A DNA stretch of 25,104 nt from a virus, in IMG/VR virus record IMGVR_UViG_3300009091_000057, positions 1 to 25,104 of that record. The stretch is one strand, 5' to 3'. The position numbers and the translations under genes were made by a program. Shown here in pieces: positions 1,371 through 21,512 of this stretch (position 1 is the stretch's first letter; every line of letters starts with the position of its first letter). The notes beneath the pieces were generated by a model that saw only the letters and a program-made list of their open reading frames with translations, did no database searches and was not told where the DNA came from.

Positions 1371-1620
1371 CAGCCTGCTCCAGGATGACCACTTCCATGG
1401 CGTCGGTCATATGCCGTCCTTCAGGAGGAGACCCGTCCGTTTCATAAGCGCCCACCATCCGCTCGAGCGCCGACGTCATCCGGAGGGAGGTTTCCGCCTG
1501 GAGCGACGAGACGCGAAGGATTTCTCCGATCAGCTCCCGCATGCTTCGTCGATCCGCCTGCATTTCCTCCAGGATCACGCTGAAGCCAAGAATATCACGG
1601 ATCTTCGAGGTTAATCCCAT
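1348..1620 (-). CDS. Small helical protein between terminase and portal
   Basis: This 90-residue protein starts at the ATG at 1620, which overlaps the last bases of the terminase gene (the terminase stop is at 1611-1613), so translation is probably coupled. A GTG at 1647 is also in frame but would extend the overlap and has no better ribosome site. The middle (residues 15-60) is rich in Glu, Arg, Met and Leu with heptad-like spacing and is probably a coiled coil (EEMQADRRSMRELIGEIL). No catalytic motif is seen. Its place suggests a head-assembly or packaging accessory role, but that is inference from position alone. I do not recognise the family. Confidence 0.7.
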   Translation of the reverse strand: MGLTSKIRDILGFSVILEEMQADRRSMRELIGEILRVSSLQAETSLRMTSALERMVGAYETDGSPPEGRHMTDAMEVVILEQADERWRGN

Positions 1621-4994: not shown

Positions 4995-5022
4995 TGGTTC
5001 GCGTCTGCAGCCCCCTGGTTCG
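4995..5022 (+). repeat. Two degenerate TGGTTCG repeats, 21 bases apart
   Basis: TGGTTCG occurs at 4995-5001 and 5016-5022. Each differs from the TGGTTCA heptamer of the main cluster by its last base. They lie just upstream of the first strong dyad and are probably weak or decayed members of the same site family. Confidence 0.5.
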
Positions 5023-5039
5023 CCCTTTTCGCGGGGCAC

Positions 5040-5291
5040 TGGTTCAAAGTGGTTCATCGGGGTGAACCAGATGAACCAGTTGGGAACGCGTTGGAAATAA
5101 AGGAGTTCCGGGAATTGGGCTCTGCCCCTGGTTCAGGTGGTTCATTCCGCCTTATACCAAGAAGTGCACCACCCAGATGAACCCAAAGGGTGGTTCATAC
5201 TGGTTCAAACGAGTGAACCAGGGAGAAAGACATTGAAAAGAAAGGACTTAGGAGGAGAAAATTTCCTCAGCTGGTTCAACCACGTGAACCA
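5040..5291. repeat. Cluster of eleven TGGTTCA/TGAACCA heptamers forming dyads with 6-base spacers
   Basis: Forward copies (TGGTTCA) start at 5040, 5050, 5129, 5138, 5191, 5201 and 5272. Reverse copies (TGAACCA) start at 5063, 5072, 5214 and 5285. Three inward-facing pairs have exactly six bases between the half-sites (5050/5063, 5201/5214, 5272/5285). A degenerate outward pair (TGAACCC at 5178 with 5191) also has six. Extra half-sites sit 9 or 10 bases from their neighbour (5040/5050, 5063/5072, 5129/5138, 5191/5201), about one helical turn. This is a cooperative binding array for a dimeric protein, such as a replication initiator or a regulator. The binding protein is not identified. Confidence 0.9.
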
Positions 5292-5323
5292 TTAAGAAAT
5301 GGCGCGTTTTCCGCTCTGCTGAA

Positions 5324-5344
5324 GAGCCCCTCTTTGGGGGGCTC
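5324..5344. terminator. Short G/C hairpin, possible terminator
   Basis: GAGCCCC (5324-5330) pairs with GGGGCTC (5338-5344) around a 7-base loop. There is no T run after it on either strand, so a rho-independent terminator is only possible. It could equally be a structural element of the control region. Confidence 0.35.
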
Positions 5345-5400
5345 CCGCGCACGGAACGGTCTAACCGCTCCTCTCCAGTGGCGGGGTGAGGAAAAGGGCT

Positions 5401-5424
5401 TTCATTTTTCCAAAAATTTTTTAG
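5401..5424. other. AT-rich tract beside the repeat cluster
   Basis: The stretch is almost entirely A and T (a T5 run, then A5 and T6 runs) inside GC-rich DNA. It lies about 110 bases from the last dyad. Such a tract next to iterons is typical of the DNA-unwinding part of an origin. That role is inference; an UP-element or simple bent DNA is the alternative. Confidence 0.4.
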
Positions 5425-5656
5425 AGTTCTGCAGTGTCAAGAGGGGGCGGGGGAGTCAGACAAGGATCCGGGGGGTAGGGGACCCGTCCACCCCGCGATG
5501 ATAGTCAGACGCTGATCCTCCGCACGTCCGCCAGGGCAGCAAAAGTACAGCATTGCGAGACAGCTCCAGCGTAATCATAGAGCCTAACGCCACCACCTTC
5601 ATCCTTTGGGGTTTTCAGTTCTTCCTGCTGCCTTATTTTCTTACCTGATTCTTTTG

Positions 5657-5671
5657 TGGTTCAGGGGTTCA
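5657..5671 (+). repeat. Isolated TGGTTCA/GGGTTCA pair upstream of the first early gene
   Basis: TGGTTCA at 5657-5663 is followed by GGGTTCA at 5665-5671, 8 bases on. It belongs to the same heptamer family as the 5040-5291 cluster but lies about 50 bases before the start of the 5723 gene. If a protein bound here it could control that gene. Confidence 0.5.
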
Positions 5672-5722
5672 GACCACCTGGCCCGGGAGGAGAGTTCCTC
5701 CGCCCGAAGGAAGGAGTGAGCC

Positions 5723-6124
5723 ATGGGTTTCGTCGAGTTCGTTCTCCGCTTCTGGAGCCTACGAGTCGAGCGTACCGGGTACGCGCGAGTCCTCAGGGAC
5801 GTGACCTGGGGTGACACCCAGAGCGCTGACCGGACGCCACTGAGCCGCCGCTTCGCCAGCATGGCGGAGTACTTCGCTGCCGCCAACAAGTTGAGCCCCA
5901 GCGATGCACGGGCAGAGCTGGTGCGCCAGCTCATTGCCAACGCGACCGTCTTGGAGAACCACGGGCTCACCGTCCGCAACTTCACCAACGTCTACGGCGA
6001 GACGACGTTGGGAATCGGGGTATCACGCAAGCCCATCTGGACGACAACCGCCGACGACCTCGCTGCCGACCTCGCAGCGGTGGACAGCACGGCAATCGAC
6101 CTGCCCGACGACATCCCCTACTAA
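5723..6124 (+). CDS. Hypothetical early protein (133 aa), monocistronic
   Basis: The start ATG at 5723 follows a very strong ribosome site (AAGGAAGGAG, 9 bases upstream). The protein has a hydrophobic/aromatic N-terminus (FVEFVLRFWSL), a central helical segment (RFASMAEYFAAANKL, then DARAELVRQLIANATVL) and a short strand-rich C-terminal part (NFTNVYGETTLGIGVS) with an acidic end. No known motif is seen. It is the only gene between the control region and a strong terminator at 6135-6179, so it is expressed alone, probably early and strongly. A host-takeover role is plausible from position but is inference. Confidence 0.8.
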   Translation: MGFVEFVLRFWSLRVERTGYARVLRDVTWGDTQSADRTPLSRRFASMAEYFAAANKLSPSDARAELVRQLIANATVLENHGLTVRNFTNVYGETTLGIGVSRKPIWTTTADDLAADLAAVDSTAIDLPDDIPY

Positions 6125-6134
6125 CCGGCTACCG

Positions 6135-6179
6135 CCTGGGGATCGCGCTGAGACCGCGCGATCTCCAGGCCCCCTTTTT
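6135..6179 (+). terminator. Rho-independent terminator
   Basis: A 14-base-pair stem (5' arm 6135-6148, 3' arm 6156-6169, one G-U pair) encloses a 7-base loop and is followed by CCCCC and TTTTT (6170-6179). It begins ten bases after the stop of the 133-residue gene and ends its transcript. Confidence 0.9.
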
Positions 6180-6246
6180 CGCAGGCGCGGGGGTAGCCCT
6201 CGAGCTTCTTCCTAGAGCCTGCAGTGGCGGAGAAACGGAGACCCTA

Positions 6247-6462
6247 ATGGCCCTGAGATTCACCATGCAACCCCGAGTAACGCTGACCTCATGGCGCGCA
6301 ATCGCAGAAACCGCGGCGTACGTCGCGACCAGCGCTGGTCGCCGTCGAGGTTCGTGGGATCGCGATCACTACCGGTTCTCATCGTCGTCGCCAGCGCTGG
6401 CACTCGCCAAAGGATACGACCTCGAACCGAGGCTCATCCGAGCCAAGCGAAGTGCCCAATGA
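6247..6462 (+). CDS. Small basic hypothetical protein (71 aa)
   Basis: First gene of a tight plus-strand cluster. A 71-residue, Arg- and Ser-rich protein begins at an ATG preceded by CGGAG about 8 bases upstream. Its stop overlaps the next ATG as ATGA (6459-6462), which supports its being translated. I see no domain; composition is low-complexity in the middle (a run of serines). Another frame at 6291 overlaps it, but only that frame's 3' part (from 6459) looks real. Function unknown. Confidence 0.55.
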   Translation: MALRFTMQPRVTLTSWRAIAETAAYVATSAGRRRGSWDRDHYRFSSSSPALALAKGYDLEPRLIRAKRSAQ

Positions 6463-6665
6463 TCAAAAACCAGCGCGTCATGCACGTGACAGAGAATGGA
6501 GCGAGCCACCGAGTGCTCGCACAGTCCGGATGGACCCAGGTCTCGACGTACAACCGAAACGATATGGGCCCCGCAGCCGTGCTCGTTGGCGACGCCATCC
6601 CCACCGGCTACCGCGCCATCTACGGCAACGAACGCATCCTCGATCGGCTGGAGAAGAAGGCGTAA
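6459..6665 (+). CDS. Small hypothetical protein (68 aa)
   Basis: Starts at the ATG inside ATGA shared with the previous stop; the same frame is open from 6291 but the upstream part is a shadow of the 71-residue gene. The 68-residue product has short strands with polar turns (MIKNQRVMHVT, HRVLAQSGW, AAVLVGD) and ends with a charged helix (RILDRLEKKA). It looks like a small compact alpha/beta protein. No family recognised. Confidence 0.6.
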   Translation: MIKNQRVMHVTENGASHRVLAQSGWTQVSTYNRNDMGPAAVLVGDAIPTGYRAIYGNERILDRLEKKA

Positions 6666-6705
6666 GCCTTCAGCATGCTCACCAAGTGGCGAGGAGGAGA
6701 AAGAC

Positions 6706-7158
6706 ATGAGAGGAAAAGCCAGCATCTTCCAGCAGCTAGGCGACCGCATCCGTGCGCTGTTCTCCCAGTTGCGCTCCCGCGTCAGCAACGCACAGAGAGC
6801 CAAGCTCATCAGAAAGCACAAGGACTACAGGAAAGCTGTCCGAATCCAGAGGGAAATCCAAGCCCTCGAAGACCAGAAGCTGACACTCGCCCGAGACCTC
6901 GACAAGCTGGGCTGGGAAGCCACGCCCTACTGGCTGGCTGACACGGAAGCACCAGTCGTGCCCAGTGAGATGCGGCGGAACCCGCCACGTGCCGCCAAGA
7001 GCCCAGAAGAACAGACCCTCGAAGACGAGGAAGCCCAGTGGATCAAGCGCCTGACAGAGCTGGAGATCCGCGCCACGCTGAAAGATCCGAACACGGCCAA
7101 CGCCATCCTCGAATTCATGGCCCAGCTCGACACGCGTGATAAGGAGACCAAGAAATGA
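6706..7158 (+). CDS. Coiled-coil hypothetical protein (150 aa)
   Basis: The ATG at 6706 follows a strong GAGGAGG site 8-9 bases upstream, which decides the start; the same frame is open from 6496 but that part overlaps the 68-residue gene. The protein has a long basic/acidic heptad region (about residues 8-68, with ALEDQKLTLARDLDKLGW), a proline-containing linker, and a second acidic helix (about 100-145, EEAQWIKRLTELEIRATL). It is probably an elongated helical oligomer. It couples to the next gene by ATGA. Function unknown. Confidence 0.75.
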   Translation: MRGKASIFQQLGDRIRALFSQLRSRVSNAQRAKLIRKHKDYRKAVRIQREIQALEDQKLTLARDLDKLGWEATPYWLADTEAPVVPSEMRRNPPRAAKSPEEQTLEDEEAQWIKRLTELEIRATLKDPNTANAILEFMAQLDTRDKETKK

Positions 7159-7505
7159 AGGAAGAGCCTGAAGGCGAAGAGCCGAACATGGCAGAGTTCG
7201 AAAAGCGCGCGGATGCGCTCTACGACATGCTGGTCGTCTTCCTGATGGGCACAAATGAGCACCCCACAGTGATCACCGCGGCGATCACGAAAGTGCTCAT
7301 CAAGGCCCTCGCCCACAGCATCACCACAAGGGAACAGCTCGAAGACATGCGCAAGCTGTACGCCGACTTCCCCAATGCGGTCATCGCGCACATCAAGGAG
7401 TGCGAGTATACGTATCCCGGACTGAAGGCGGAACTCAAGGCAGCAGAGCCTGCCTCCGAAGTACCCTCCGCTGAGGAACTGGAACAATGGCTCAGACTCG
7501 AGTAG
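7155..7505 (+). CDS. Hypothetical helical protein (116 aa), paralogue of the 11634 gene
   Basis: Starts in the ATGA overlap with the coiled-coil gene. An internal ATG (residue 12) is an alternative start. The core reads LYDMLVVFLMGTNEHPTVI, then ITKVLIKALAHSIT and a charged helix with LEDMRKLY. The stretch from FLM to KALA lines up with FLM to LKA in the 97-residue protein at 11634 without gaps, sharing F, L, M, N, P, I, T, V and L positions, so the two appear to be distant copies. All-helical, soluble. Its C-terminus overlaps the next gene by 19 bases. Function unknown. Confidence 0.75.
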   Translation: MKEEPEGEEPNMAEFEKRADALYDMLVVFLMGTNEHPTVITAAITKVLIKALAHSITTREQLEDMRKLYADFPNAVIAHIKECEYTYPGLKAELKAAEPASEVPSAEELEQWLRLE

Positions 7506-7717
7506 CTCCGCGGATCTTCGCAGAGATTACGAGGATCCCGTACATCATCCGGTACCAGGATCCGAGTACGAAAGCTGTGTTAGAAGGCTCGTACAATCCG
7601 CTCACCCATGAGCTGCGCTGGAACTGCGGTGCCGCCGTCACCCTAGAGCAACTCAGCGCAGTCGCCGACTGGACCGTCGAACTCCGAATGCTCACGCTCA
7701 GCGGAGTCCACGGATGA
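7487..7717 (+). CDS. Small hypothetical protein (76 aa)
   Basis: A 76-residue protein that begins inside the end of the previous gene (19-base overlap). It alternates short beta strands (PYIIRYQDPSTK, AVLEGSYNP, HELRWNCGAAVT) with a final helix and strand (LEQLSAVADWTVELRML). This pattern suggests a small beta-rich domain. One cysteine, no motif. It joins the next small gene by ATGATG at 7714. No family recognised. Confidence 0.65.
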   Translation: MAQTRVAPRIFAEITRIPYIIRYQDPSTKAVLEGSYNPLTHELRWNCGAAVTLEQLSAVADWTVELRMLTLSGVHG

Positions 7718-7893
7718 TGCCACTCCCATGCATCATCGCCCGTGCCGTGATCGCCGTGGCCCTGATCGCAGGCCAGCTCCTCGCCATGGAAGCGCTGTAC
7801 GAGATCATCCGGTCGCTGCGCCACCTCAGCTCCGAAATCTCAGTCATCCGTGAAGACCTGCGCTCAGCAGACAGGAGATTCAGACACTCATGA
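7714..7893 (+). CDS. Small single-pass membrane protein with charged helical tail (59 aa)
   Basis: Translation from the ATG at 7714 (overlapping the previous TGA) gives 59 residues. A hydrophobic segment at about 6-24 (CIIARAVIAVALIAGQLLA) is followed by an amphipathic charged tail with heptad-like spacing (LYEIIRSLRHLSSEISVIREDL). This is a clear membrane-anchor plus coiled-coil layout. Such proteins in phages include spanin- or holin-like and superinfection-exclusion proteins, but nothing here decides among them. It closes the 6247-7893 cluster. Confidence 0.65.
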   Translation: MMPLPCIIARAVIAVALIAGQLLAMEALYEIIRSLRHLSSEISVIREDLRSADRRFRHS

Positions 7894-7945
7894 CCATATC
7901 GCCCACCAGTAAATAAGAGCCCGTAGGGAAAGCCGCCTCCATAGC

Positions 7946-7986
7946 CGTTGTCAAGGTTCTAGGCATTGACCTCGAATTTGACAACG
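7946..7986. promoter_or_regulatory. Inverted repeat overlapping the -35 box (candidate operator)
   Basis: CGTTGTCAA (7946-7954) and TTGACAACG (7978-7986) are exact 9-base inverted repeats separated by 23 bases. The right arm contains the -35 hexamer of the promoter at 7978-8006, so a bound dimer would block RNA polymerase. The loop contains a second TTGAC-like half. A repressor site is the simplest reading (inference). Confidence 0.55.
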
Positions 7987-8006
7987 GCGTTAGCCTCGTG
8001 TATACT
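7978..8006 (+). promoter_or_regulatory. Sigma-70 promoter of the MoxR/VWA operon
   Basis: TTGACA at 7978-7983, a 17-base spacer, and TATACT at 8001-8006. This matches the -35 consensus fully and the -10 at five of six positions with optimal spacing. Start of transcription is expected near 8013, leaving a leader of about 25 bases with GGAAGGAGGAG before the TTG start at 8038. It is the best promoter in the window. Confidence 0.88.
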
Positions 8007-8037
8007 GTCCGTCCCCGCCCAAGGGAAGGAGGAGCCC

Positions 8038-8280
8038 TTGACCGAAGAGAAAGCCCCGATTGCCGTGAAGACCACGTACACCGTCGCCCTGGAATGCGGC
8101 TTCGACATTCGTGTGTCGAAGAGCAGCAATGATCTGCAGAACGTCCAGCTGCAGATCGTCGATCGCACGGATCGGGAATGTGCCGACAGCATCAACCTCA
8201 CCGCCATCGAGTGGCGGACTCTCTTTGACCTGTATTACATGCTTGGGGTCTATCCGCCCAAGCCTGAGGAGACGGCGTAA
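8038..8280 (+). CDS. Hypothetical protein (80 aa), first gene of the MoxR/VWA operon
   Basis: The frame is open from a TTG at 7966, but the promoter lies inside that extension, so the true start is the TTG at 8038, preceded by GAAGGAGGAG. The 80-residue product has strands in the first half (IAVKTTYTVALECGFDIRVS, NVQLQIVDR) and a helix near the end (AIEWRTLFDLYYML). It looks like a small alpha/beta protein. It shares one base-pair junction (TAATG) with the next gene. Function unknown; as promoter-proximal gene it should be made in large amounts. Confidence 0.75.
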   Translation: MTEEKAPIAVKTTYTVALECGFDIRVSKSSNDLQNVQLQIVDRTDRECADSINLTAIEWRTLFDLYYMLGVYPPKPEETA

Positions 8281-8633
8281 TGCCCACCACCAAGGACGAA
8301 CTCAAGCGCTACAAGGCGTACCTGCTCCAGCAAGCCATCACCGTGAAAGACGAGACGCAAGGCTTGCAGGAAGCCTCTTCACGCGAGATCAACCTGGGCG
8401 TGGAACTCGCGGTGGAGATCGAGAACATCATCAACAACGACGTCGAAGCGCACGGCCCACTGCTGAACGCCACGGTCGCCTCGCTGCTGGGCTCTGCCGC
8501 CGTGGGCATGATGGTCAACCGCATGGATCTGCCGGAAGAATATCTCCGCCAGATGTTCACCGCGATCATCCGCAAGAACTTTGAACTGCGGAGCTTTCCA
8601 ACAGCTCTGCCTTCCAACGGAGTGACGCACTAA
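8280..8633 (+). CDS. Hypothetical helical protein (117 aa)
   Basis: Starts in a TAATG overlap. All-helical prediction: a basic N-terminal helix, an acidic helix (LGVELAVEIENIINN), a small-residue helix (LLNATVASLLGSAAVGMMV) and an amphipathic final helix (EEYLRQMFTAIIRKNF). The small-residue helix could touch a membrane but is not long or hydrophobic enough to be certain. Its helix order and spacing (EH..., then a 20-residue aliphatic helix, then LRQM) weakly resembles the proteins at 7155 and 11634. It lies directly before the AAA+ gene and couples to it by TAATG, so it may be a partner of that ATPase. Confidence 0.75.
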   Translation: MPTTKDELKRYKAYLLQQAITVKDETQGLQEASSREINLGVELAVEIENIINNDVEAHGPLLNATVASLLGSAAVGMMVNRMDLPEEYLRQMFTAIIRKNFELRSFPTALPSNGVTH

Positions 8634-9373
8634 TGGCGAAGTCCACACCCATTTCCTCGCTCACAGCATGGCAGATCCACGATCACATGCTCTCCGCGCA
8701 CGTCCCACGGATGCTGACCTACGGCCCTCCCGGAATCGGAAAGTCCTACGGCCCAGCGAAATGGGCCGCGAAGAACCGCTGGGAGTTCATGAGCGTCACG
8801 CTGACAGACCAGACGCCAGCCTCAGAGCTGCGAGGGCACTTCATCCTCAAGGGCTCCGACTTCGTCTGGCACGATGGCGTCGTCACGAGAGCGTGGCGGA
8901 AAACCCAGGAAGGCCTCAACGTCCTGATCGAGATCAACGAGATTGTGGAAGCGGGCGCCGACGTCGAAGTCTTCCTCCACAATGCCCTCGACGATCCCGA
9001 GTTCGCCAGACTGGATCTTCCAACCGGCGAAACCATTCGTCCGGCTCCGGAACGTCTCATCGTCGTCGCCACGATGAATGGCAATCCGGGCATGATCCGC
9101 GAAGCCCTCCGTGATCGCTTCCCGGTGAAGATCCAGCTCAACGAACCGCATCCCGATGCAATCATGGCGTTGCCATCGGACTTGCGCCCACTCGCCATGG
9201 AAATGACCAAGGCATCGAAGGGAAAAGATCGCATGAGCGTTCGCCCCTTCGTGGCCTATGCGCAGCTTCGGAGCCGTGTCGCCGCGAACATCGCAGCTGA
9301 GGCGGTCTTCGGGGAGAACGCACTCGACATTCTCACAGCATTGGGGCTTTCAACGATCAAAGCCCCGAAGTAA
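8633..9373 (+). CDS. MoxR-type AAA+ ATPase
   Basis: A 246-residue AAA+ ATPase of the MoxR/dynein-related (AAA_5) kind. Seen motifs: Walker A GPPGIGKS at 31-38, Walker B-type VLIEINE at 97-103 (Glu where Asp is more usual), sensor 1 ATMNGNP at 146-152, and an arginine-finger candidate in REALRDRF at 156-163. MoxR enzymes act as hexameric chaperone-like remodelers, usually with a VWA-domain partner encoded next door, as here (gene at 9386, 12-base gap). The lid domain is short. Similar phage proteins are often annotated as CobS-like; nothing here ties it to cobalamin. Target unknown. Confidence 0.9.
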   Translation: MAKSTPISSLTAWQIHDHMLSAHVPRMLTYGPPGIGKSYGPAKWAAKNRWEFMSVTLTDQTPASELRGHFILKGSDFVWHDGVVTRAWRKTQEGLNVLIEINEIVEAGADVEVFLHNALDDPEFARLDLPTGETIRPAPERLIVVATMNGNPGMIREALRDRFPVKIQLNEPHPDAIMALPSDLRPLAMEMTKASKGKDRMSVRPFVAYAQLRSRVAANIAAEAVFGENALDILTALGLSTIKAPK

Positions 9374-9385
9374 AGGAGCTGGCTC

Positions 9386-10882
9386 TTGCGAAGAACATTC
9401 CCGGAAGTCTTGCCTGACGATCGGGGTGGCGAGGAGTGGCAAGTCTCTCAGACGTTTCTGGGCGACCTCCACGCCACCACCGATCTCAAGCGGAAGACGA
9501 TGACCATCCCGGGCGGCGACGATGCGCAATCACTGGCCGTCCGTGCACGGGAGATGATTGCCGCAGCAATCGGCTCCGGATGGGATCATTACAAGGTCTC
9601 GCAGAAATATGATCTCAAAGTGGCCTCGGTGGCGCTGGCTGAGCGCATCCGCGTGAACTGGTCGATTAGGAACGCGGATAGCTTGATCGGCTCCGTTCCC
9701 CCCATGGCGCAGGAAGCGCTGACCCAATACGAACACAGCACGATCACCCAGAACGAACTGGACGTCGCTGTCGCGCAATGGCAGAAGGCCTACAGAAAGG
9801 AGCCGAAAGACACGCTCAAGCGGTGGGCGATGGCAGCCATGGACGCCGCCTTCACGGCGGATCAGTGCGCCATCATAGAGCTTGGACGCCGCATGATAGG
9901 CGATGTCCCCGAAGACGATGAATCGTCGATGGTCGATCAGATCTTCGAGCAGCTCTGCGAACGGATAAATAAGATCTGCATCGACGGGGCGTCACGCCAG
10001 CGCTCCGGCATTCCCAAGCTCTCCACAATCGTCGAACTGGCAAAAGCCCTTGAGAAAACCGTGGATAATGCCATCGACGACAGCATGATGAGCGGTGCAC
10101 GCGACGGTCCACCTGCTGATCCGGACGATCGCATGCGCATGAGCAAAAAAGATCGTGCGGCGTTGGACATGCTCGATCCAGACGGAAACAAGATGAAAAA
10201 ACGGAACGAGCAGTTCGAAGGGCGATGGCCCGTCAGCGCGAAGCATCGCTGGGGTGAACTCACCATCGTCGAGGCGAGTCTCGTCGATGACTTCCGCATC
10301 CGTAGGCTCTTGAGGAAAGCCTACGCCACGGACGCAGGCGTGCAGATCGGCGCCCTGCACCGCCTCTATACGGATCAGAAGATCTTCCGCGATGTGAAGC
10401 TCGTCAACGTCGGAACCGTGCTCATCGACACCTCCGGATCGATGAGCCTGAGCCAAGAGGACATCTATAACATGGTCCTCGAATGCCCAGCGATCACAGT
10501 CGCCACGTACTCCGGCGAGGAAGCCGAAGGCGTCCTGAAGATCGTCGTCAGCGGAGGGAAGATCGCGCATGATTCCAATGACTTCTATCCGCCAGGTGGC
10601 GGTGGAAACATCGTCGATGGCCCAGCGCTGGAGTGGCTGGGCACTCAGCAAGCACCGCGAATTTGGATCTCTGACGGCTGCGTGACAGGCATCAACGACA
10701 CCATGGCTCCGAACCTCACCATGGAGTGCATCGCCCTGCTCGCCCAGCATCAAATCTGGCGAGTGCCAACGCTCACGCACGGAGGGCAGCTGGTGAAGCT
10801 GCTCAACGACCCACGGAAAAAGCGATTGCTCATGGAAAGCCAATGGGGCTTGTTCATACCCCAGGAGGGCGCACACCGATGA
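9386..10882 (+). CDS. VWA-domain protein, partner of the MoxR-type ATPase
   Basis: A 498-residue protein starting at TTG 9386, chosen because AAAGGAG lies 7 bases upstream. The N-terminal two thirds are helical and charged. The C-terminal third is a von Willebrand factor A domain: MIDAS motif DTSGSM at residues 348-353, and ISDG near 430. The usual third MIDAS position (Thr after a Gly pair) reads GGGGN here, so metal coordination may be altered. Known MoxR/VWA pairs (RavA-ViaA, CbbQ-CbbO) use the VWA protein as adaptor that brings a target to the ATPase. The stop overlaps the next start as ATGA. No CobT-type chemistry is implied. Confidence 0.88.
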   Translation: MRRTFPEVLPDDRGGEEWQVSQTFLGDLHATTDLKRKTMTIPGGDDAQSLAVRAREMIAAAIGSGWDHYKVSQKYDLKVASVALAERIRVNWSIRNADSLIGSVPPMAQEALTQYEHSTITQNELDVAVAQWQKAYRKEPKDTLKRWAMAAMDAAFTADQCAIIELGRRMIGDVPEDDESSMVDQIFEQLCERINKICIDGASRQRSGIPKLSTIVELAKALEKTVDNAIDDSMMSGARDGPPADPDDRMRMSKKDRAALDMLDPDGNKMKKRNEQFEGRWPVSAKHRWGELTIVEASLVDDFRIRRLLRKAYATDAGVQIGALHRLYTDQKIFRDVKLVNVGTVLIDTSGSMSLSQEDIYNMVLECPAITVATYSGEEAEGVLKIVVSGGKIAHDSNDFYPPGGGGNIVDGPALEWLGTQQAPRIWISDGCVTGINDTMAPNLTMECIALLAQHQIWRVPTLTHGGQLVKLLNDPRKKRLLMESQWGLFIPQEGAHR

Positions 10883-11223
10883 TCGAAAAAGGCCTGTATC
10901 ACATCTCACTCCGCAACGGCGTGAAGATTACGCTGAGGAACGGGCGAGAGGCGCTCTCGCTGTTCCTCAAAGCGGATGAGTTCCAAAGGAATGACGATCT
11001 CTATCATGCCCATCTTACTGAGGCATTGGTAGACCAGATTGACGCAGCCGGGCGGAGCTATGCCGGATGGTTCATGGTAGACGAGGATTCCGCCCGCCTC
11101 ACGATTCCGGAGCGCAACATCGCTGGATGGCAGTGGATTGAGGACAAGCCCATTGTCGAGGAGAAGCCTGTCGATCTCGAGGAGATTCGAAGGCTCTTGG
11201 AGGGCCCACCCCGTGCAGATTGA
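10879..11223 (+). CDS. Hypothetical protein (114 aa) coupled to the VWA gene
   Basis: Starts at the ATG in the ATGA overlap; the same frame is open from 10726 but that part is a shadow of the VWA gene. The N-terminus is beta-rich (GLYHISLRNGVKITLRNGREAL), followed by a helix, more strands around GWFMVDEDSARLTIP, and an acidic C-terminus (IVEEKPVDLEEIRRLL). It could be a small adaptor of the ATPase pair, judged only from position. No family recognised. Confidence 0.75.
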   Translation: MIEKGLYHISLRNGVKITLRNGREALSLFLKADEFQRNDDLYHAHLTEALVDQIDAAGRSYAGWFMVDEDSARLTIPERNIAGWQWIEDKPIVEEKPVDLEEIRRLLEGPPRAD

Positions 11224-11461
11224 AATCGTGCCCATCCCACAAGGCTCTGGGCGCATCACCGCCACGAGCGCCATCTGGGACGAGCTGATCAAAGCGAAAC
11301 TCACAGGTGTCGCGATTCGGGTCAACATCGAAAGCGCGAAAGCAGCCAAGCTGCTGCAGAACTCGCTCTCCCACAGAGTGCGGAAGAACCTCCCATCGTG
11401 CCGCCTCCGCTCTCAATGGGACCGCGCCACCCAGCTACTCACGCTATGGATCAGCGAGTAG
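11213..11461 (+). CDS. Small hypothetical protein (82 aa), GTG start
   Basis: The start is the GTG at 11213, inside the end of the previous gene, with GGAGGGC about 10 bases upstream. The frame is open further back, but that region is a shadow. The product has a first strand (MQIEIVPIP), a helix (SAIWDELIKAKL), a strand (VAIRVNI), a helix (AAKLLQNSL) and a Trp-containing final strand (ATQLLTLWIS). Alpha/beta, basic. Overlaps the next gene by 16 bases. Function unknown. Confidence 0.65.
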   Translation: MQIEIVPIPQGSGRITATSAIWDELIKAKLTGVAIRVNIESAKAAKLLQNSLSHRVRKNLPSCRLRSQWDRATQLLTLWISE

Positions 11462-11637
11462 CCCAGCTCCGGACGGCGATTGCCATTGAAGAGATCGCCT
11501 CCACCTACGCGAACATGCTGCGGCGGGTGTCATGGGAGGAGCCCGCCGCTGAGATCCACGCCGTCTACGACACACTCAACCTGCTGGCGGGGAAGGCCCT
11601 CGCCTGGCAGGCGGCGCTGAAGGAGGACAAGGAATGA
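11446..11637 (+). CDS. Small helical protein (63 aa)
   Basis: Begins at ATG 11446 within the end of the previous gene; an earlier in-frame ATG at 11398 would lie deep inside that gene and is unlikely. The 63 residues are nearly all helix (QLRTAIAIEEIASTYANML, then EIHAVYDTLNLLAGKALAW). Acidic/basic balanced, soluble. ATGA overlap with the next gene. Function unknown. Confidence 0.65.
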   Translation: MDQRVAQLRTAIAIEEIASTYANMLRRVSWEEPAAEIHAVYDTLNLLAGKALAWQAALKEDKE

Positions 11638-11927
11638 CGAAGAAGAAGGAAATCACGGATGAGGAACTGGCAGCGACGAAGCCGCTCGCGTTTCAAAGCG
11701 TGAACATCCTCCGCTTTCTGATGGAGAAGAACCAAGACCCTGCCGACATCTTCATGGTCATTACGCTCGTGCTCGTCGGGCTCAAGGCCATGTTCTTCGT
11801 CGGATCCTCAGAGGACTGGGAAAAGATGATGGCCGGGCTCAGCGAGTACGTCAACAAGGAAGCCGACCATGCGCTGAGGGATATCCCTGAGGTGATCGCG
11901 AAGATCAGAGGGGATGCCTATGACTGA
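11634..11927 (+). CDS. Hypothetical helical protein (97 aa), paralogue of the 7155 gene
   Basis: Starts in an ATGA overlap. The core VNILRFLMEKNQDPADIF, then VITLVLVGLKAMFFV and a charged helix with WEKMM aligns without gaps to the 116-residue protein at 7155 (FLM..N..P..I...IT.VL pattern, about 11 identical of 25 by eye). The aliphatic middle helix could be buried in an oligomer. The presence of one copy in the small-gene cluster and another in the MoxR operon suggests duplication. Function unknown. Confidence 0.75.
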   Translation: MTKKKEITDEELAATKPLAFQSVNILRFLMEKNQDPADIFMVITLVLVGLKAMFFVGSSEDWEKMMAGLSEYVNKEADHALRDIPEVIAKIRGDAYD

Positions 11928-12429
11928 CATCGAGCGGCTATTCGACTTCGCCCAGTCAGCCTTGGACAACCAGAACTGGCTGGCGGGGATGATCGAGGTG
12001 GACTGTGACCTTGGGAATTTCGCTGTGGCGCTGGCGTCGAAGGAGGCGCATGACAACCGCCACAAGATTATCCACATCTTGGCAGAGGTCTTCCCGGGCG
12101 TGACCGCGATCCGCTTTCTCTACGACGGCTACGTCACCCCATTGGAGGATGGGAAACCGTGCCCGGAATGCCTGGGAGAAGAGCCAGAGCGTTCAACATG
12201 CACAGCCTGCTGTGGCTTTGGCCTGCAAACCGATAGCACTGGCCGCTCCGATGCGCTCGTCGTGATTGAGATTACCAAGGAGGGACAGACCGTTCACACC
12301 CAGCGGTACACCGTGGTTGGAACGCCCAAGAGCGGCACCGTCAGGCGGCTCTACCAGCGCCCGACCTCACACAGCATCAACGGCGAGGATCTGACCGGTT
12401 TCCATTCGTCTTACCCGGAGACACTATGA
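11920..12429 (+). CDS. Hypothetical protein with Cys4 zinc-binding loop (169 aa)
   Basis: Two ATGs (11914 and 11920) compete; the second is preferred because GAGGGG lies 7-8 bases upstream of it. The N-terminal half is helical (IERLFDFAQSALD, HKIIHILAEVF). The middle has two CxxC pairs, CPEC and CTAC followed by CGFG, spaced like one DnaJ-type zinc module. The C-terminal part is beta-rich. Zinc binding is a fair inference; a DnaJ role is not, as there is no J domain. It couples to the next gene by ATGA. Confidence 0.75.
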   Translation: MTDIERLFDFAQSALDNQNWLAGMIEVDCDLGNFAVALASKEAHDNRHKIIHILAEVFPGVTAIRFLYDGYVTPLEDGKPCPECLGEEPERSTCTACCGFGLQTDSTGRSDALVVIEITKEGQTVHTQRYTVVGTPKSGTVRRLYQRPTSHSINGEDLTGFHSSYPETL

Positions 12430-12818
12430 CCATCAACGAAGGAATCGCGAAGTACGGCAGACTGCCCGCGGATGGAGAGCCGCGTATCCACGTGGCTCAG
12501 GAGATCTTCGATACGCTCTTGAAAGCCGGCGTCGATTGCAAGCTCTCGTCCGTAGCGGTCGCCTACATGAAGTGGCTGAAGACCCAGACGATGACAGAGG
12601 TGGCGAAGCCCGACCCCGTGAAGCCTGCGTCAATCGCGAAGAGGGCCAGGCGTGCAGCGAAGCGGCAAGAACAGCAGATCAACGAAGCCATGCACACGCG
12701 GCTGCAGTCACGGATTGACGACGCCGATCGGCTGCGGACACTCGTGGATGCCCGGGAGATGATGCTGATCGCGTTCGACGGCCTGATCGCCCAGCTCTCG
12801 CTGCGCCTGGCGAAGTAG
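12426..12818 (+). CDS. Hypothetical basic protein (130 aa), last gene of the operon
   Basis: Starts in an ATGA overlap. The N-terminal 55 residues form a compact helical segment (AQEIFDTLLKAGVDCKL, VAVAYMKWLK). A Lys/Arg/Ala-rich linker follows (SIAKRARRAAKRQEQ), then a long charged helix (about 85-128). The basic linker suggests nucleic-acid or protein contact. It is followed by a strong hairpin (12846-12877) that probably ends the operon. No family recognised. Confidence 0.75.
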   Translation: MTINEGIAKYGRLPADGEPRIHVAQEIFDTLLKAGVDCKLSSVAVAYMKWLKTQTMTEVAKPDPVKPASIAKRARRAAKRQEQQINEAMHTRLQSRIDDADRLRTLVDAREMMLIAFDGLIAQLSLRLAK

Positions 12819-12845
12819 GCACAAGAAGGTTCTCACACTCTTCAA

Positions 12846-12877
12846 GGGGGAGGCGCGGAGGATCCCGCGTCTTCCCC
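12846..12877. terminator. Strong 13-bp hairpin at a convergent junction
   Basis: GGGGGAGGCGCGG (12846-12858) pairs with CCGCGTCTTCCCC (12865-12877), with two G-U pairs and a 6-base loop. It lies 28 bases past the stop of the plus-strand operon and about 120 bases past the end of the minus-strand pair. It has no clear T run, so it may slow polymerase or block 3' decay rather than act as a textbook terminator. Confidence 0.6.
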
Positions 12878-12943
12878 GGAAAGGATGCAGCATGAGTGCG
12901 GAAACGGGGCTAGCGCCCCCGTCCGGTGGTCAGCAGGCTTTCG

Positions 12944-12987
12944 GCGTTTGTGGCGGGGCGCCCGGACGGGCCGCGTTTGTGGCGGGG
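12944..12987 (+). repeat. Direct repeat GCGTTTGTGGCGGGG, 29-base period
   Basis: The 15-mer occurs exactly at 12944-12958 and 12973-12987. Between and around them CCCGTCCGG (12918-12926) and CCGGACGGG (12962-12970) form an inverted repeat. A 32-codon frame (12892-12990) spans the area but has no support beyond a weak ribosome site. The stretch between the two convergent units is probably non-coding. Confidence 0.6.
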
Positions 12988-12999
12988 TGAAAATCCTGG

Positions 13000-13878
13000 T
13001 CATTTCACCGTCTTCGACGCCCTCTGGATCTTGCTCCAACAGGCCCCCTCACTCTTCTTTGGGAAGCAATCTTTGAGCTTCCGCGCCAGCTCTCTGAGGC
13101 TCTCCCCCTTCCGGTTCTGCACTAACTCTATCGCCTTGGCATGGAAGGAATCCGCCATGGAAAACAGGTGGTACTCCGGATCCATCGCCACCCCAATGGC
13201 ATGGAGTTCGAGGGCCCTGCCCTTCGCGGTCAGCGTTCGCTCCGTCAGATGAAGAATCGAATCCATCCTTCCAGCGATATATCCGCTGCCCCGGTTCTCA
13301 TCCGTGACATCCATCTGAAACCCATTGGGACTACTCTTCCGGGCATGTGAAAGCAGCAGGATCGCCGGATTACGCGCCGCGGCCCTCAGCGCAGCGATGA
13401 CTCTCTTCATCTCTGATGAAGAGTTCTCCTCTTGGTCATGAACCTCCCTGATCGTGTCAATCACGAGCAGAACGGGCGGCGGATCCATTGCCGCCAGCGC
13501 CGCTCTGAGCCACGTGTTCCCATCACCCAGAATGTTGAAGGGGTAGGGCAGCTCGTCCGAATCCGCGTCAGCAAAGAACACACCAGAAAGGTCCAGCTTG
13601 GGTCGGACCTCCTCCAAACGCTCTGTCCACACCGTCCTCGGGGTATCCACCTGTAAATATGCCACGGGTCCATGGGTGCGCACTCCAAATCCCATCCATT
13701 CATTGACGGAAGGCGTCGCAATGGCATGCGCCAGCTGCAACGCCAAGTAAGACTTCCCAACCTTCGGCTTGCCAAAGAGATTGACATATCCTCCTGTCGG
13801 CAGTACATCCTCGATGATCCACGCTTCAGGCGCACGCGGCAGCGCCAGATACGACTCGAACTCGTGGAAGCGTGCCAT
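13000..13878 (-). CDS. RepA-like RecA-fold ATPase (AAA_25), probable replicative helicase
   Basis: A 292-residue RecA-fold ATPase. Walker A is GKPKVGKS at residues 36-43 after WIIEDVLPTGGYVNLFG, a lead-in typical of the RSF1010 RepA/AAA_25 group. Walker B is VLLVIDT at 136-142, and a LLLSHARK motif at about 175-182 fits the sensor region of this group. Family members are hexameric replicative helicases of plasmids and phages, or related DNA-repair ATPases. The C-terminal 60 residues are basic (LARKLKDCFPKKSEG) and may bind DNA. It follows the Dam-type gene with a 2-base gap, on the strand opposite its neighbours. Confidence 0.85.
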   Translation of the reverse strand: MARFHEFESYLALPRAPEAWIIEDVLPTGGYVNLFGKPKVGKSYLALQLAHAIATPSVNEWMGFGVRTHGPVAYLQVDTPRTVWTERLEEVRPKLDLSGVFFADADSDELPYPFNILGDGNTWLRAALAAMDPPPVLLVIDTIREVHDQEENSSSEMKRVIAALRAAARNPAILLLSHARKSSPNGFQMDVTDENRGSGYIAGRMDSILHLTERTLTAKGRALELHAIGVAMDPEYHLFSMADSFHAKAIELVQNRKGESLRELARKLKDCFPKKSEGACWSKIQRASKTVK

Positions 13879-13880
13879 CG

Positions 13881-14354
13881 CTAACGCCGGAAGATCACCA
13901 ACATCGAAGGGAACGGTGCAGGGTTCCCGGCGATCCCCTTCATCCTGAAGCGGATCCGTCCTTTCAGAAAGCGAATCTCCGTTCGCTGATCCGCGCGGTA
14001 GCAGAACTCATGAAACCATCGGGTATCCGTTCGGGCAGGGAGGAGCAACATGACAAGGTCCGCGGATTCCCAGATGTAAACGCTGTACCATGCTTGCTTC
14101 ACGAACGATCCGACTAGCCTCCCATAGGGAGGATTGCAGAACACCCTCCCCCGCCACTTCTGTGTCAAGGCATCGTCGTAATACTCCGCACAGAGAGCGT
14201 TCTCGGCATTCGCCGCGGCATCCGTCGTAAATCCGAACTCCTTCTGCCATTCCGCAAAGATCTCCGGGGGCGTTTCCCAATCGCCCCGACTGGAGGAGAA
14301 AAGCACGTCTTTCCATTTGGCATTATCATTGCCAATCTCGATGGGTATGGACAC
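13881..14354 (-). CDS. dam: Phage DNA N6-adenine methyltransferase (Dam type)
   Basis: A 157-residue enzyme of the phage N-6-adenine-methyltransferase family, transferring methyl from SAM to adenine in DNA. Seen features: WETP (26-29), the conserved FTTDAAANAENA stretch (about 42-53), catalytic NPPYG (74-78) and a C-terminal FPSMLVIF strand. The GTG at 14354 is chosen as start because GAGGTGA, a strong ribosome site, lies 5 bases before it; an ATG at 14378 has none. Even so, the 5' end overlaps the divergent nuclease gene. It is co-transcribed with the RepA-like ATPase. Target site is not readable, GATC being the common one for the family. Confidence 0.88.
   Translation of the reverse strand: MSIPIEIGNDNAKWKDVLFSSSRGDWETPPEIFAEWQKEFGFTTDAAANAENALCAEYYDDALTQKWRGRVFCNPPYGRLVGSFVKQAWYSVYIWESADLVMLLLPARTDTRWFHEFCYRADQRTEIRFLKGRIRFRMKGIAGNPAPFPSMLVIFRR
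14317..14335. promoter_or_regulatory. Palindrome TTGGCA-N7-TGCCAA at a divergent start
   Basis: TTGGCA (14317-14322) and TGCCAA (14330-14335) form an exact dyad at the point where the minus-strand methyltransferase and plus-strand nuclease diverge. It lies inside the first codons of the methyltransferase and just before the nuclease ATG, so a dimeric regulator there could act on both. Role is inferred. Confidence 0.45.
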
Positions 14355-15471
14355 GATTCTCACCTCACGATCGCGCATCGTCGCCTACGCCAACTGCCAA
14401 CGACTCGGGTATCTCACGTATGACTGGGATGGAACGGGGCTGGAGCCGGTGACGCTGGCGCTCCCCCTCGCCAACGGCATCGCCGTTCATGAGATTCTGG
14501 CAGCCATCCTCACGGGAACCCCTCCAGAAGCAGCAATAAGCAAGGTGCTTGCCGAGTATGCGGCGCAGGTCAAGGCCTTGGGCGTGGCGAATGAAGACCC
14601 GGAAGGCCTGGAGTGGCTCATCCGCGAACAACGCACCCTCCTGGAAGGGACGATCCGGGCATGGCTGCGGATTCGGCTCCCCCAATTGCAAGCCCAGTTT
14701 GACTTTCTGGCCGTCGAGAAGGAACTCCGGTGGCCCCTCGACCCGGAAGCCACGATTATTGATCAGGTACGGTGCGATGTGCTAGCCCGGAGGAAAACCG
14801 ACGGCGGACTCTTCTACGTGGAATGGAAGACCACGACCACCGGGGGCGACGAATGGATCAAGCAATGGGAGCATAACACGCAGATCTTGGCGAACGTCTT
14901 GGCCGTGGAAGAAATGCTCCACGAACGCTGCGAGGGGGTGATGATTGAAGGGATCCTCAAAGGGCGCCGGAAAATTGACGAAGCCGCCCGGAGTCCCTTT
15001 AATGGGAAGAAAATCCAGTTCTCCCCCCTCTGCTATGGCTACAAGCATGTGGTGGCGGGGGAGTATAGCCCTCGGTATCAGGCGGCAAAGGGCTGGTACA
15101 AGATAGCGACCTTTGAGGAAATGCCCATCAAAGAATGGGTGGAACAGGTCATGACTGTGGAAGACTGCTCGGCCCTGTTCGCTCCCGTCCCGCCCATCCG
15201 GCCGAACCGCAGGCACTTGGAACGTTGGCGCCGACAGACGATTGTGGTAGAAAAGGACAGGGCCTTTGCCCTAGACCAAGTCGCACGGGGGGCGGATCCC
15301 GACCTGCTCTTCCCCATGAACGACGAGCATTGCTTCCGGTATTGGGGGCATCCGTGCCCCTTTGAGCCGCTGTGCTTCCGGGAGGAGATTGAACAGGACC
15401 CCCTTGGCTCTGGGCTCTACCAGCGCCGGGAAGATCATCATAAAATCGTGGAACTCACGGAGGACGTATGA
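14341..15471 (+). CDS. PD-(D/E)XK nuclease, Cas4/RecB-like with Fe-S cysteines
   Basis: A 376-residue nuclease of the PD-(D/E)XK superfamily. Active-site residues visible are H50 (GIAVHEIL), D136 (RCDVLAR), E151 and K153 (EWK), and Q171 in the following helix. Four cysteines, C19 near the N-terminus and C331, C339, C345 near the C-terminus, match the split Fe-S cluster of Cas4, AddB and related exonucleases. It probably resects DNA ends for recombination, in line with the Sak4-like ATPase downstream. The start is uncertain: ATG 14341 and 14347 and TTG 14317 are all possible, and none has a clear ribosome site. No cas genes or arrays are nearby. Confidence 0.87.
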   Translation: MGMDTILTSRSRIVAYANCQRLGYLTYDWDGTGLEPVTLALPLANGIAVHEILAAILTGTPPEAAISKVLAEYAAQVKALGVANEDPEGLEWLIREQRTLLEGTIRAWLRIRLPQLQAQFDFLAVEKELRWPLDPEATIIDQVRCDVLARRKTDGGLFYVEWKTTTTGGDEWIKQWEHNTQILANVLAVEEMLHERCEGVMIEGILKGRRKIDEAARSPFNGKKIQFSPLCYGYKHVVAGEYSPRYQAAKGWYKIATFEEMPIKEWVEQVMTVEDCSALFAPVPPIRPNRRHLERWRRQTIVVEKDRAFALDQVARGADPDLLFPMNDEHCFRYWGHPCPFEPLCFREEIEQDPLGSGLYQRREDHHKIVELTEDV

Positions 15472-15497: not shown

Positions 15498-16096
15498 AGG
15501 CGAGGGAAATCCGCGCACTCGGCAATTGGGGTTCCCAGGGAGGACTGCTTTCTGAAGCAGAGCTGGCCTTCCTGATGGAAATCACGGGGCTCATTGCAAG
15601 GGAACGTGGGGAGGGCTTCCGGATGCTGGAGGTCGGGCATTACTACGGGCTCTCCACGATGGGAATTGTGAGAACCCTACAGCAGTCGCTCCTCGTGCAC
15701 TGGAAGCTGATCACCCTCGACGCCCATTGCGCAGACCCATGGGTGCCCGCAACCGACCCCAACGTGTTCTTCAAGAACCAATGGGATCGCTTCCCGGATC
15801 CCCGCGTGGAGGTGCAGATCCAGCGTTCGGAACTGCTCACCGGGCTGCCTCCGTTGGACGCCGTGTTCTATGACGGGGATCACGGCAACGAACAGTTCCG
15901 CTTTACGCAGATGGTCCACGCGACTCCTGGGATCAAGACGTTCCTCTTTGATGATCGGGATTTCCCGGTTCCTGTGAAATGCGTGGAGTTCCTGCGCGAC
16001 CATGGCTGGGATGACTTCTCTCCTCAGCTGGTGAGAGGTCCGCAAGACAAGGCACATCCGCTCACGATGAGCATTGGATGGTTCCGCCGTGGATGA
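15494..16096 (+). CDS. Class I SAM-dependent methyltransferase (Methyltransf_24-like)
   Basis: A 200-residue protein with a Rossmann-type methyltransferase fold. Motif I is LEVG...GLST (45-55), with acidic LDAH at 75-78 and DGDH at 127-130, typical of the Methyltransf_24/CmcI-TylF type group. These act on small molecules, sugars or peptides, not on DNA bases, so its substrate here may be a sugar or surface structure. The frame is open from 15362 inside the nuclease gene; GTG 15494 is chosen because it follows the nuclease stop and overlaps the mini-ORF stop. TTG 15485 is an alternative. Overlaps the HNH gene by 23 bases. Confidence 0.8.
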   Translation: MKAREIRALGNWGSQGGLLSEAELAFLMEITGLIARERGEGFRMLEVGHYYGLSTMGIVRTLQQSLLVHWKLITLDAHCADPWVPATDPNVFFKNQWDRFPDPRVEVQIQRSELLTGLPPLDAVFYDGDHGNEQFRFTQMVHATPGIKTFLFDDRDFPVPVKCVEFLRDHGWDDFSPQLVRGPQDKAHPLTMSIGWFRRG

Positions 16097-16472
16097 GGAA
16101 GAGCCTGAAATAGAGGTCGTGGTGTATGAGATCACGCCTAAGGTCATTACACGGGTCCTCGGTAAGACGGTAATCCCCGATGATGAGGAGCACGAATGTT
16201 GGGAATGGCAAGGCTCCCGCACGTACGATGGCTACGGCCACGTCTCCGTGGGAGGGAAGCTGTTCCTCGCACACCGGGTGCTCTACGTGGTCTACAAGGG
16301 AGAGATTCCTTCCGGGCTCGTATTGCTCCACTCGTGTGACAACAGAAAATGCGTAAGCCCGCATCATTTGCGGGTTGGGACGCAGGCAGAGAACTTGCAA
16401 GACATGCATAACAAGGGGCGGTGGAGGAGGAAACCACATGCACAGTCCAAGGGAACTGCGAGAGATGCTTGA
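16074..16472 (+). CDS. HNH endonuclease (HNH_3 type)
   Basis: A 132-residue HNH nuclease. It shows the CWEWQG start of the domain (42-47), the AHRVLY helix (66-71), the core LLHSCDNRKCVSPHHL (about 84-99, with H86, C88, C93 and H97/H98 as ligands or catalytic residues) and a final GTQAEN turn. HNH_3 enzymes are commonly free-standing homing nucleases in phages; some act in packaging or degradation of rival DNA. It is inserted between the methyltransferase and HTH genes with overlaps on both sides (23 and 35 bases), unusual for a recent homing insertion. The start at 16074 lacks a strong ribosome site; GTG 16089 is possible. Confidence 0.88.
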   Translation: MDGSAVDEEEPEIEVVVYEITPKVITRVLGKTVIPDDEEHECWEWQGSRTYDGYGHVSVGGKLFLAHRVLYVVYKGEIPSGLVLLHSCDNRKCVSPHHLRVGTQAENLQDMHNKGRWRRKPHAQSKGTARDA

Positions 16473-18411: not shown

Positions 18412-18476
18412 TCCTGGCCTTGAAGTGGGGAAAATGATGTGCTCTAATTGGATGCCGGTGGAGGAGCGTGGAATTC

Positions 18477-21396: not shown

Positions 21397-21512
21397 TTCG
21401 AGTGGTGGAGAGCGATGGAACAACCGGATGGCAATGCCCCTGGTGTGGGGCCGAATGGCGAACGCCGGCTGGGAACGATCGGCATTCTCACGGGGGAGTC
21501 GGGCCGGTATAG
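21324..21512 (+). CDS. Small zinc-ribbon protein (62 aa), overlapping both neighbours
   Basis: Starts at GTG 21324 inside the previous gene. The frame encodes CPHC near the N-terminus and CPWCGAEW near residue 40, a four-cysteine zinc ribbon. The overlap with the upstream gene (73 bases) and with the glycosyltransferase (98 bases) is large, so one of the three starts may be misplaced. The clear cysteine pairs argue that the frame is or was coding. No strong ribosome site. Function unknown. Confidence 0.45.
   Translation: MSSCPHCRRLIVPVTRGGQRFNPLIRVVESDGTTGWQCPWCGAEWRTPAGNDRHSHGGVGPV

Follow-up and report, generated by a model that had tools for sequence, protein, structure and literature searches.

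Pairs of genes for a MoxR-type ATPase and a VWA protein turn up in widely differing viruses (cyanophages, haloviruses, N4-like phages and jumbo phages), where annotations often call them cobalamin genes, peptidases or endonucleases. The papers cited here were available in part, and what is ascribed to them is limited to those parts. AAA/vWA neighbours are described in haloviruses (PMC7911831), and viral cobS/cobT pairs have been proposed to hijack the host CobN (PMC8651126); the function of phage cobS has been termed uncertain or speculative (PMC11288001, PMC11705849). In phage N4, gp24 ('Unknown') and gp25 ('vWFA domain') are core genes of N4-like phages (PMC4193335; PMC2784036) and are said to be middle transcripts (PMC4193335). 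Here, we analyzed a pair of this kind, genes g3 and g4, which stands in a run of ten genes (g1 to g10) on an IMG/VR virus record of 25,104 bases (this whole stretch is called the window below). The data indicated that g3-g4 is probably a MoxR/VWA remodelling motor that belongs to a family of virus contigs and is expressed with the early or middle DNA-metabolism genes, and that the eight small genes around it are not constant subunits of it. A sequence-only reading had proposed the run as an undescribed phage system. 'Undescribed' overstates the case, since MoxR-VWA ('CobS/CobT') pairs of tailed viruses are already in print (PMC8651126, PMC7824862, PMC7911831); their function is not established there, and the literature available contained no functional test of a MoxR-VWA pair in a tailed phage.

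The g3-g4 pair and its relatives

From its matches, g3 is a short MoxR-type AAA+ ATPase. It matched Pfam AAA_5 (E = 1.2e-14) and phrog_16448 (2.1e-20), a profile that is not virus-specific and had matches in 14 of 14 control cellular genomes, and its top sequence match in PDB was NorQ (8.7e-16). The protein carries Walker A as G31PPGIGKS38, a Walker B with Asn in place of Asp and then E103, and T147/N149, R162 and R204, which we take, by analogy with AAA+ proteins, to supply the catalytic Glu, sensor 1, the Arg finger and sensor 2. A match to phrog_249 'porphyrin biosynthesis' (5.1e-14), together with the chelatase role proposed for viral cobST (PMC8651126), would fit a cobaltochelatase helper (CobS/CobT) that teams with the host CobN for cobalamin supply. 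However, the phrog_249 label may reflect shared AAA+ ancestry only, and among solved proteins NorQ comes nearest to g3. CobN (PF02514) was found in 0 of 10 virus records, which are possibly fragments, in comparison with 5 of 14 controls, and the genes scanned, a part of the full gene set, included no recognisable corrin enzyme. The function of phage cobS is itself called uncertain (PMC11288001), and we consider the chelatase role very improbable.

The g4 protein matched phrog_33218 (6.8e-18, residues 286-465), a VWA family that has no function annotated in PHROGs and had matches in 0 of the 14 control cellular genomes; no Pfam match was obtained at E of 1 or below, and no family name beyond phrog_33218 was found. 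A MIDAS-like site was present as D348-S350-S352 ... N408-D411 ... D430 (DxSxS...D). The AlphaFold2 model of g4, built on a 49-row alignment, had a mean pLDDT (predicted local distance difference test) of 74.8; the score was at least 88 per block of ten over residues 291-480, except for 301-310 (73), and 79-91 over 31-90. Foldseek ranked the NorD VWA domain first (9qhd, E = 1.7e-3), and comparison by VIA-align gave Z 10.1 (root-mean-square deviation 3.3, 143 residues aligned), with Z 7.9 for the best chain other than NorD. Because Foldseek alone fails to reach 0.001, it takes motif, alignment and structure together to support the VWA assignment. The naming of the two genes as a MoxR-type ATPase and its VWA partner, made from the letters, was borne out by the AAA_5 and NorD matches.

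The pair was followed through virus contigs. An alignment of three distant ATPases led to 11 loci, one of them from the same phage; the MoxR scan then gave at least 182 loci, of which 80 were kept, and the VWA scan gave 198, of which 80 were kept. The resulting 170 loci include the window, loci of the same phage and contigs fetched repeatedly; reduced at 90% identity, with the window included and single-partner loci left out, they form a sample of 87 distinct pairs. Both genes were found in 154 of the 170 loci, always as ATPase then VWA, adjacent and on one strand. VWA adjoined MoxR in 75 of 80 loci of the MoxR scan, and MoxR adjoined VWA in 73 of 79 new loci of the VWA scan; in the 11 misses, about 1 kb of DNA or less was covered on the missing side. 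Twelve of the 16 single-partner loci are cut off at an end of the available DNA, and the other four (L028-L031) are remote relatives; in three of these (L028, L029 and L030) a protein with a MIDAS-like motif is encoded as well. The VWA proteins of three relatives matched phrog_33218 at 1.1e-25 to 3.6e-49, and the ATPase of one relative matched phrog_16448. Among 84,980 bacterial and archaeal genomes, the MoxR alignment scan returned 594 stretches and the scan with g4 alone returned 44, with no relative in either; such scans see only patterned stretches, and strictly lytic phages would escape them. As far as sequence comparison can tell, g3-g4 is a compact family, so far in virus contigs only, and the pair is a real, widespread and uncharacterised candidate motor of phages.

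No isolated phage could be named with exactly this VWA family, because tblastn of g4 against 50,697 phage records gave no match at E of 10 or below, and the VWA proteins of two relatives gave none at 1e-5. In the viral fold library, the protein nearest to g4 was A0A1B0XTW8 (451 amino acids, 20% identity, E = 6.5e-18), followed by a Klebsiella phage 'VWA-like' protein (1.3e-3). HHTV-2 gene 3 was rejected as a homologue of g4: it aligned at 22%, but its MIDAS positions were out of register and the profiles gave no match. Synechococcus phage S-CBS4, the nearest by its terminase large subunit (TerL), had no phrog_16448 match. A 'vwfa domain protein' lies at L017:38234-38959 in the circular record MW202554, whose polymerase matches that of the window; the phrog_33218-family VWA profiles do not find this protein.

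The motor residues and the MIDAS-like site were conserved. G36, K37, E103, N149, R162 and R204 of the ATPase (conserved columns) were found in the window as well as in 99-100% of the 87 pairs, as were D348, S350, S352, N408, D411 and D430 of the VWA protein. For NorD, a DxSxS-T-D MIDAS is reported (PMC13036017); judged from the alignment, phrog_33218-type VWA proteins probably carry an invariant Asn/Asp (N408, D411) about where the MIDAS Thr is expected. The Walker B Asp was replaced by Asn in 65 of 87 pairs, including the window, and kept in 22, a single change on the drawn MoxR tree with a support of 4 only. One extra residue precedes Walker B in g3 in comparison with the relatives.

The peptidase motif behaved differently from the motor and the VWA site. 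HExxH was present in 69 of the 87 VWA proteins and absent in 18, including that of the window, while the pair and its MIDAS stay, which weakens proteolysis as the constant function. Relative L026 was counted as positive (aligned letters HEMLH) after an extended reading frame had put the motif beyond the part tested by the script. The pattern needs at least nine changes on the MoxR tree, which is of a quick kind with long branches, that of the window among them, and omits L137, which has no Walker A. Because parallel families carry the motif, the changes are read as mainly losses. In the N-terminal region of g4, REMIA stands at the spot aligned to HExxH of the relatives; an alternative aligner setting shifts the gap, and HExxH was absent anywhere in the protein whichever setting was used. 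The peptidase thus looks optional in the alignments, and the motor and VWA site constant. A fold search with the N-terminal region of L116, a relative with HExxH, returned several collagenase or MATCAP peptidase chains (E 0.08-1.2), and in a second structural look by VIA almost all matches fell in the VWA half. The basis of the peptidase reading is the HExxH motif, along with the PF13203 match of the parallel N4 protein, because a zincin fold match was not obtained.

Neighbouring genes and strand layout

The position of the pair relative to structural and recombination genes was also analyzed. TerL was reached in 35 of 87 loci and lay on the strand opposite to the pair in all 35 (phrog_38, 1e-61 for the one member tested). 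A near-identical contig of 48 kb, which differs from the window at 15 of 9,097 bases, ends within g3 and extends 38.9 kb past window position 1; in it the portal gene spans that position, and genes for the major head and internal virion proteins lie farther out on the strand of TerL. Downstream of the pair, a metallophosphoesterase exonuclease was found in 50 of 87 loci, on the strand of the pair in 50 of 50 (phrog_284, 5.8e-42, one member tested). A Rad52-like single-strand annealing protein was found downstream in 48 of 87 (phrog_3290, 2.5e-11, one member tested), with 83 of 83 copies in these 48 loci on the strand of the pair. This annealing gene is doubled in 35 of the 48 loci that have it, in the main clade (e.g. 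L188:9395-9952). The recombination genes of the window are not homologous to those of its relatives but ply the same trade; the window genes tested matched none of them, save the exonuclease, which matched one in the divergent relative G003. G003 keeps the order of the window: MoxR, VWA, exonuclease, polymerase. The 22 pairs of the Asp clade have other neighbours.

This layout and these neighbours suggest that the pair would be expressed early or in the middle of infection with DNA-metabolism genes. Tentatively, the likeliest client would be a part of the recombination or replication machinery of the phage. The strand layout also makes a late virion module less likely. A chaperone for virion assembly, which would fold or mature a structural protein, has been proposed for jumbo phage group 2.2 and, in Acidianus two-tailed virus, reported for the tails (PMC7824862), and in a roseophage the genes of four virion proteins lie near homologues of N4 gp24/gp25 that are thought to be expressed in mid-infection (PMC4193335); retention of HExxH in 69 of 87 VWA proteins would fit the processing of virion proteins. 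However, the pair is opposite to TerL in the window as well as in its 35 relatives, the portal and major head genes share the strand of TerL, and the peptidase motif appears dispensable. We judge the virion role improbable, and both it and the chelatase role are disfavoured.

The ten-gene operon and its eight small genes

The features of the window are listed in Table 1. We placed the gene starts by eye, guided by Shine-Dalgarno-like stretches and by the overlaps. The gaps from g1 to g10 were -1, -1, +12, -4, -11, -16, -4, -8 and -4, in keeping with the described layout of ten genes joined by overlaps or a 12-base gap behind a near-consensus promoter, and the overlaps suggest a single transcript across all ten. 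The ten genes look real, and not chance frames, because their GC content was low at codon position 2 and high at position 3 (0.56-0.68, 0.30-0.46 and 0.68-0.84 at positions 1, 2 and 3). The promoter scan of 5000-13200 (threshold 9/12) gave three sites in comparison with 1.6 +/- 1.3 in shuffled sequences. Terminator-like sites numbered 6 in the scan and 7.7 +/- 2.7 in shuffles; one weak site lies on the + strand at 8201-8217 within g1. Upstream of the operon, a terminator-like hairpin of 15 pairs, 11 of them G-C, was seen at 6134-6170.

Table 1. Promoter and genes of the window, with position, strand and the evidence for each (aa, amino acids)
Feature	Position	Strand	Evidence
Terminase large subunit (TerL)	1611-3245	-	phrog_2 3.9e-19
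Sigma-70-like promoter, TTGACA-17-TATACT	7978-8006	+	11/12 consensus positions; predicted
g1, 80 aa, orphan, TTG start after AGGAGG	8038-8280	+	codon-position GC
g2, 117 aa, orphan	8280-8633	+	codon-position GC
g3, MoxR-type AAA+ ATPase, 246 aa	8633-9373	+	Pfam, PHROGs and PDB matches
g4, VWA partner, 498 aa, TTG start	9386-10882	+	phrog_33218, alignments, model vs NorD
g5, 114 aa, orphan	10879-11223	+	codon-position GC
g6, 82 aa, orphan, GTG start	11213-11461	+	codon-position GC
g7, 63 aa, orphan	11446-11637	+	codon-position GC
g8, 97 aa, orphan	11634-11927	+	codon-position GC
g9, 169 aa, two CxxC (CPEC, CTACC), orphan	11920-12429	+	codon-position GC
g10, 130 aa, orphan	12426-12818	+	codon-position GC
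AAA_25 gene	13000-13878	-	between operon and exonuclease
Dam methylase gene	13881-14378	-	between operon and exonuclease
PD-(D/E)XK exonuclease	14317-15471	+	Pfam PDDEXK_1 3.1e-9, phrog_1218 4.4e-6
HNH endonuclease	16074-16472		phrog_1872 1.1e-32
Sak4-like annealing ATPase	16743-17693	+	phrog_124 4.1e-8
Uracil-DNA-glycosylase (UDG) domain fused ahead of family A DNA polymerase	18468-21149	+	Pfam UDG 4.9e-27, DNA_pol_A 4.5e-28
Family 2 glycosyltransferase-like gene	21415-22197		Pfam 3.9e-8

The small proteins g1, g2 and g5-g10 gave no match above the curated cut-offs of Pfam or NCBIfam. Their best E-values were 0.075 (Pfam), 0.0077 (PHROGs), 0.015 (PADLOC) and 0.0013 (NCBIfam, 18 bits in comparison with a cut-off of 400). 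They are as unrecognised as had been said, with g9 as the Cys4 protein. The view of them as constant partners of the pair fared worse. With loci of the same phage excluded, phmmer against 31,800 open reading frames (ORFs) of the loci found 0 relatives of the eight at E of 0.1 or below, whereas the same search found 161 relatives for g3 and 158 for g4; the pair is kept without them. Adjacency of MoxR and VWA in related contigs was confirmed, but the small genes were not found nearby. A permissive search of seven contigs (six of them whole) gave nothing better than E = 0.5 for the small genes, and G003 has no homologue of them despite its shared gene order. Scans of virus contigs with g2 and g8 returned only contigs of the same phage. 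The scan with g9 did likewise apart from L211/L212 (48% over 31 residues), a match in another frame of a 5.8-kb reading frame that we treat as chance; L211/L212 had no MoxR/VWA match (best E = 0.73), and a profile search of the whole records found no ATPase. The relatives have recurrent neighbours of their own, such as a 102-amino-acid gene just upstream in 36 of 87, which are not genes of the window. Single-sequence searches of short proteins miss distant relatives, and the claim made here is a lack of detectable conservation of the small genes with the pair, an outcome that the sequence-only reading had itself named as refuting its proposal. On these searches we read them as lineage-specific genes that share its operon, not as constant subunits.

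Paralogy among the small genes was rejected: the best cases, g6/g10 (z 4.6) and g8 with the upstream ORF 7155-7505 (z 4.5; 1 of 300 shuffles each), were not significant once the 91 pairs tried were counted.

The translational overlaps along the whole operon could still speak for a ten-part machine in which the small proteins serve as adaptors or subunits specific to the version of this phage, and orphan adaptors could be too diverged for detection. Since 0 of 8 small genes detectably recur with the pair, G003 included, we think such a machine quite improbable. The operon start also bears on a host-directed module, in which the pair would remodel or disarm a host complex for takeover or anti-defence. 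The pair follows a host-type promoter close to where the rightward arm starts and has orphan small genes around it, and such a position is a usual one for host-directed genes. Anti-host genes, however, turn over quickly, and the pair is kept across 87 distinct pairs while its orphan neighbours turn over. PADLOC gave no credible match either: the best for g10 was SduA (E = 0.015, not credible), and g3 reached only IetA at 17.5 bits across 23 residues. No match to the MoxR-vWA-VMAP ternary conflict systems (PMC7159879) appeared among the ten genes at E of 1 or below, in searches that included no VMAP model by name. A host-directed role seems to us as improbable as a virion role.

A second near-identical contig, of 14.7 kb, differed from the window at 19 of 12,958 bases. 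Of the 19 differences, 7 lie in the operon; the five in g3 are synonymous throughout, and the other two comprise a replacement in g4 and one in g1. Five synonymous differences within 16 bases at 8983-8998 are common to both near-identical contigs, and this cluster looks like a small conversion or recombination patch. Elsewhere in the window, the HNH endonuclease has relatives on G004, G005 and G006, contigs that carry the ATPase too, and the polymerase of G003 begins with a stretch that resembles, by eye, the start of the UDG-polymerase of the window.

Proposed mechanism and comparison with known systems

By homology to NorQD, g3 would form an ATP-driven ring, on which g4 would dock through its VWA domain. 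The MIDAS-like site and the helical N-terminal region of g4 may hold the client, and ATP hydrolysis by g3 would twist or pull it into another state, as described for NorQ-NorD (PMC13036017). Because HExxH is absent from g4, only holding and remodelling could be left in the window phage. By this analogy, the suggestion that a phage MoxR/VWA pair remodels a protein target is supported as probable. A fuller scheme seems unlikely as a whole: a virus-only motor acting on phage recombination or replication complexes, with an Asn-fixed ATPase, a VWA adaptor that repeatedly gave up its peptidase (at least nine changes), conserved remodelling and phage-specific, co-translated small adaptors.

Several points weigh against the reading of g3-g4 as an early or middle remodelling motor with non-constant small neighbours. 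g4 is a divergent member of the family, with an identity to 48 relatives of only 18-30% in the alignment, and its model was poor in mid-protein (pLDDT of 60 or below over 101-180 and below 50 over 241-280). Asn for the Walker B Asp could weaken Mg-ATP hydrolysis, and tree counts cannot tell loss of HExxH from gain. The Asn clade supplies all 35 cases with TerL and almost every case with recombination genes; the arm of the window is not uniform, its AAA_25 and Dam methylase genes being on the other strand; and adjacency to recombination genes may only mean membership of the same transcription arm. The client and the expression timing of the pair are inferred. The flank covered was at most 7 kb in most loci, so that homologues of the small genes that have diverged or lie farther off may have escaped notice.

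Among described systems, the cyanophage CobS/CobT-type pairs (phrog_249 and phrog_459 'peptidase') likewise combine an AAA+ ATPase with an HExxH/VWA-MIDAS protein, as HEVGH and DWSGS in S-ShM2 and as HEALH and DISGS in Actinomycetia phage DSL-LC01, and in S-ShM2 cobS lies one gene from the sliding clamp. Their proteins are longer, the identity of the ATPases is about 26-34% (measured in part with the ATPase of a relative), and their Walker B reads D-E in comparison with N-E in the window. The phrog_33218-family VWA profile reached S-ShM2 at E = 7.7e-5 only and DSL-LC01 at 0.46. The MoxR-vWA pairs of jumbo phage group 2.2 have an N-terminal metallopeptidase on the VWA protein (PMC7824862); they and the pair of Acidianus two-tailed virus are likened to g3-g4 by description only, as MoxR plus VWA. 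Unlike the metallopeptidase-VWA pairs (jumbo group 2.2, N4 gp25 and the cyanophage 'peptidase'), g4 of the window lacks HExxH.

The best solved match of both g3 and g4 is NorQ-NorD, the nitric oxide reductase chaperone, for which a model of a ring with a VWA finger is given (PMC13036017). Its client is a respiratory enzyme, and the available text (PMC13036017) does not present the NorD N-terminal domain as a peptidase. In N4, gp24 is an ATPase gene followed by gp25, whose product has a metallopeptidase domain (PF13203, 3.1e-87) with HExxH and a VWA-like domain (PF09967, 1.4e-46). N4 gp25 (L209:3165-4307) is labelled an HNH endonuclease in RefSeq and PHROGs (phrog_1314) despite these Pfam domains, which is probably a mislabel spreading through annotation. 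As homologues of g3 and g4, gp24 and gp25 were rejected, with profile E-values of 0.03 or worse, and they are taken as an architectural parallel from a separate or very distant lineage. With proteolysis weakened as the constant function and a late virion module made less likely, the question of what such a pair does is narrowed to a form that can be tested in E. coli with phage N4, whose gp24-gp25 share the architecture and belong to the core genes.

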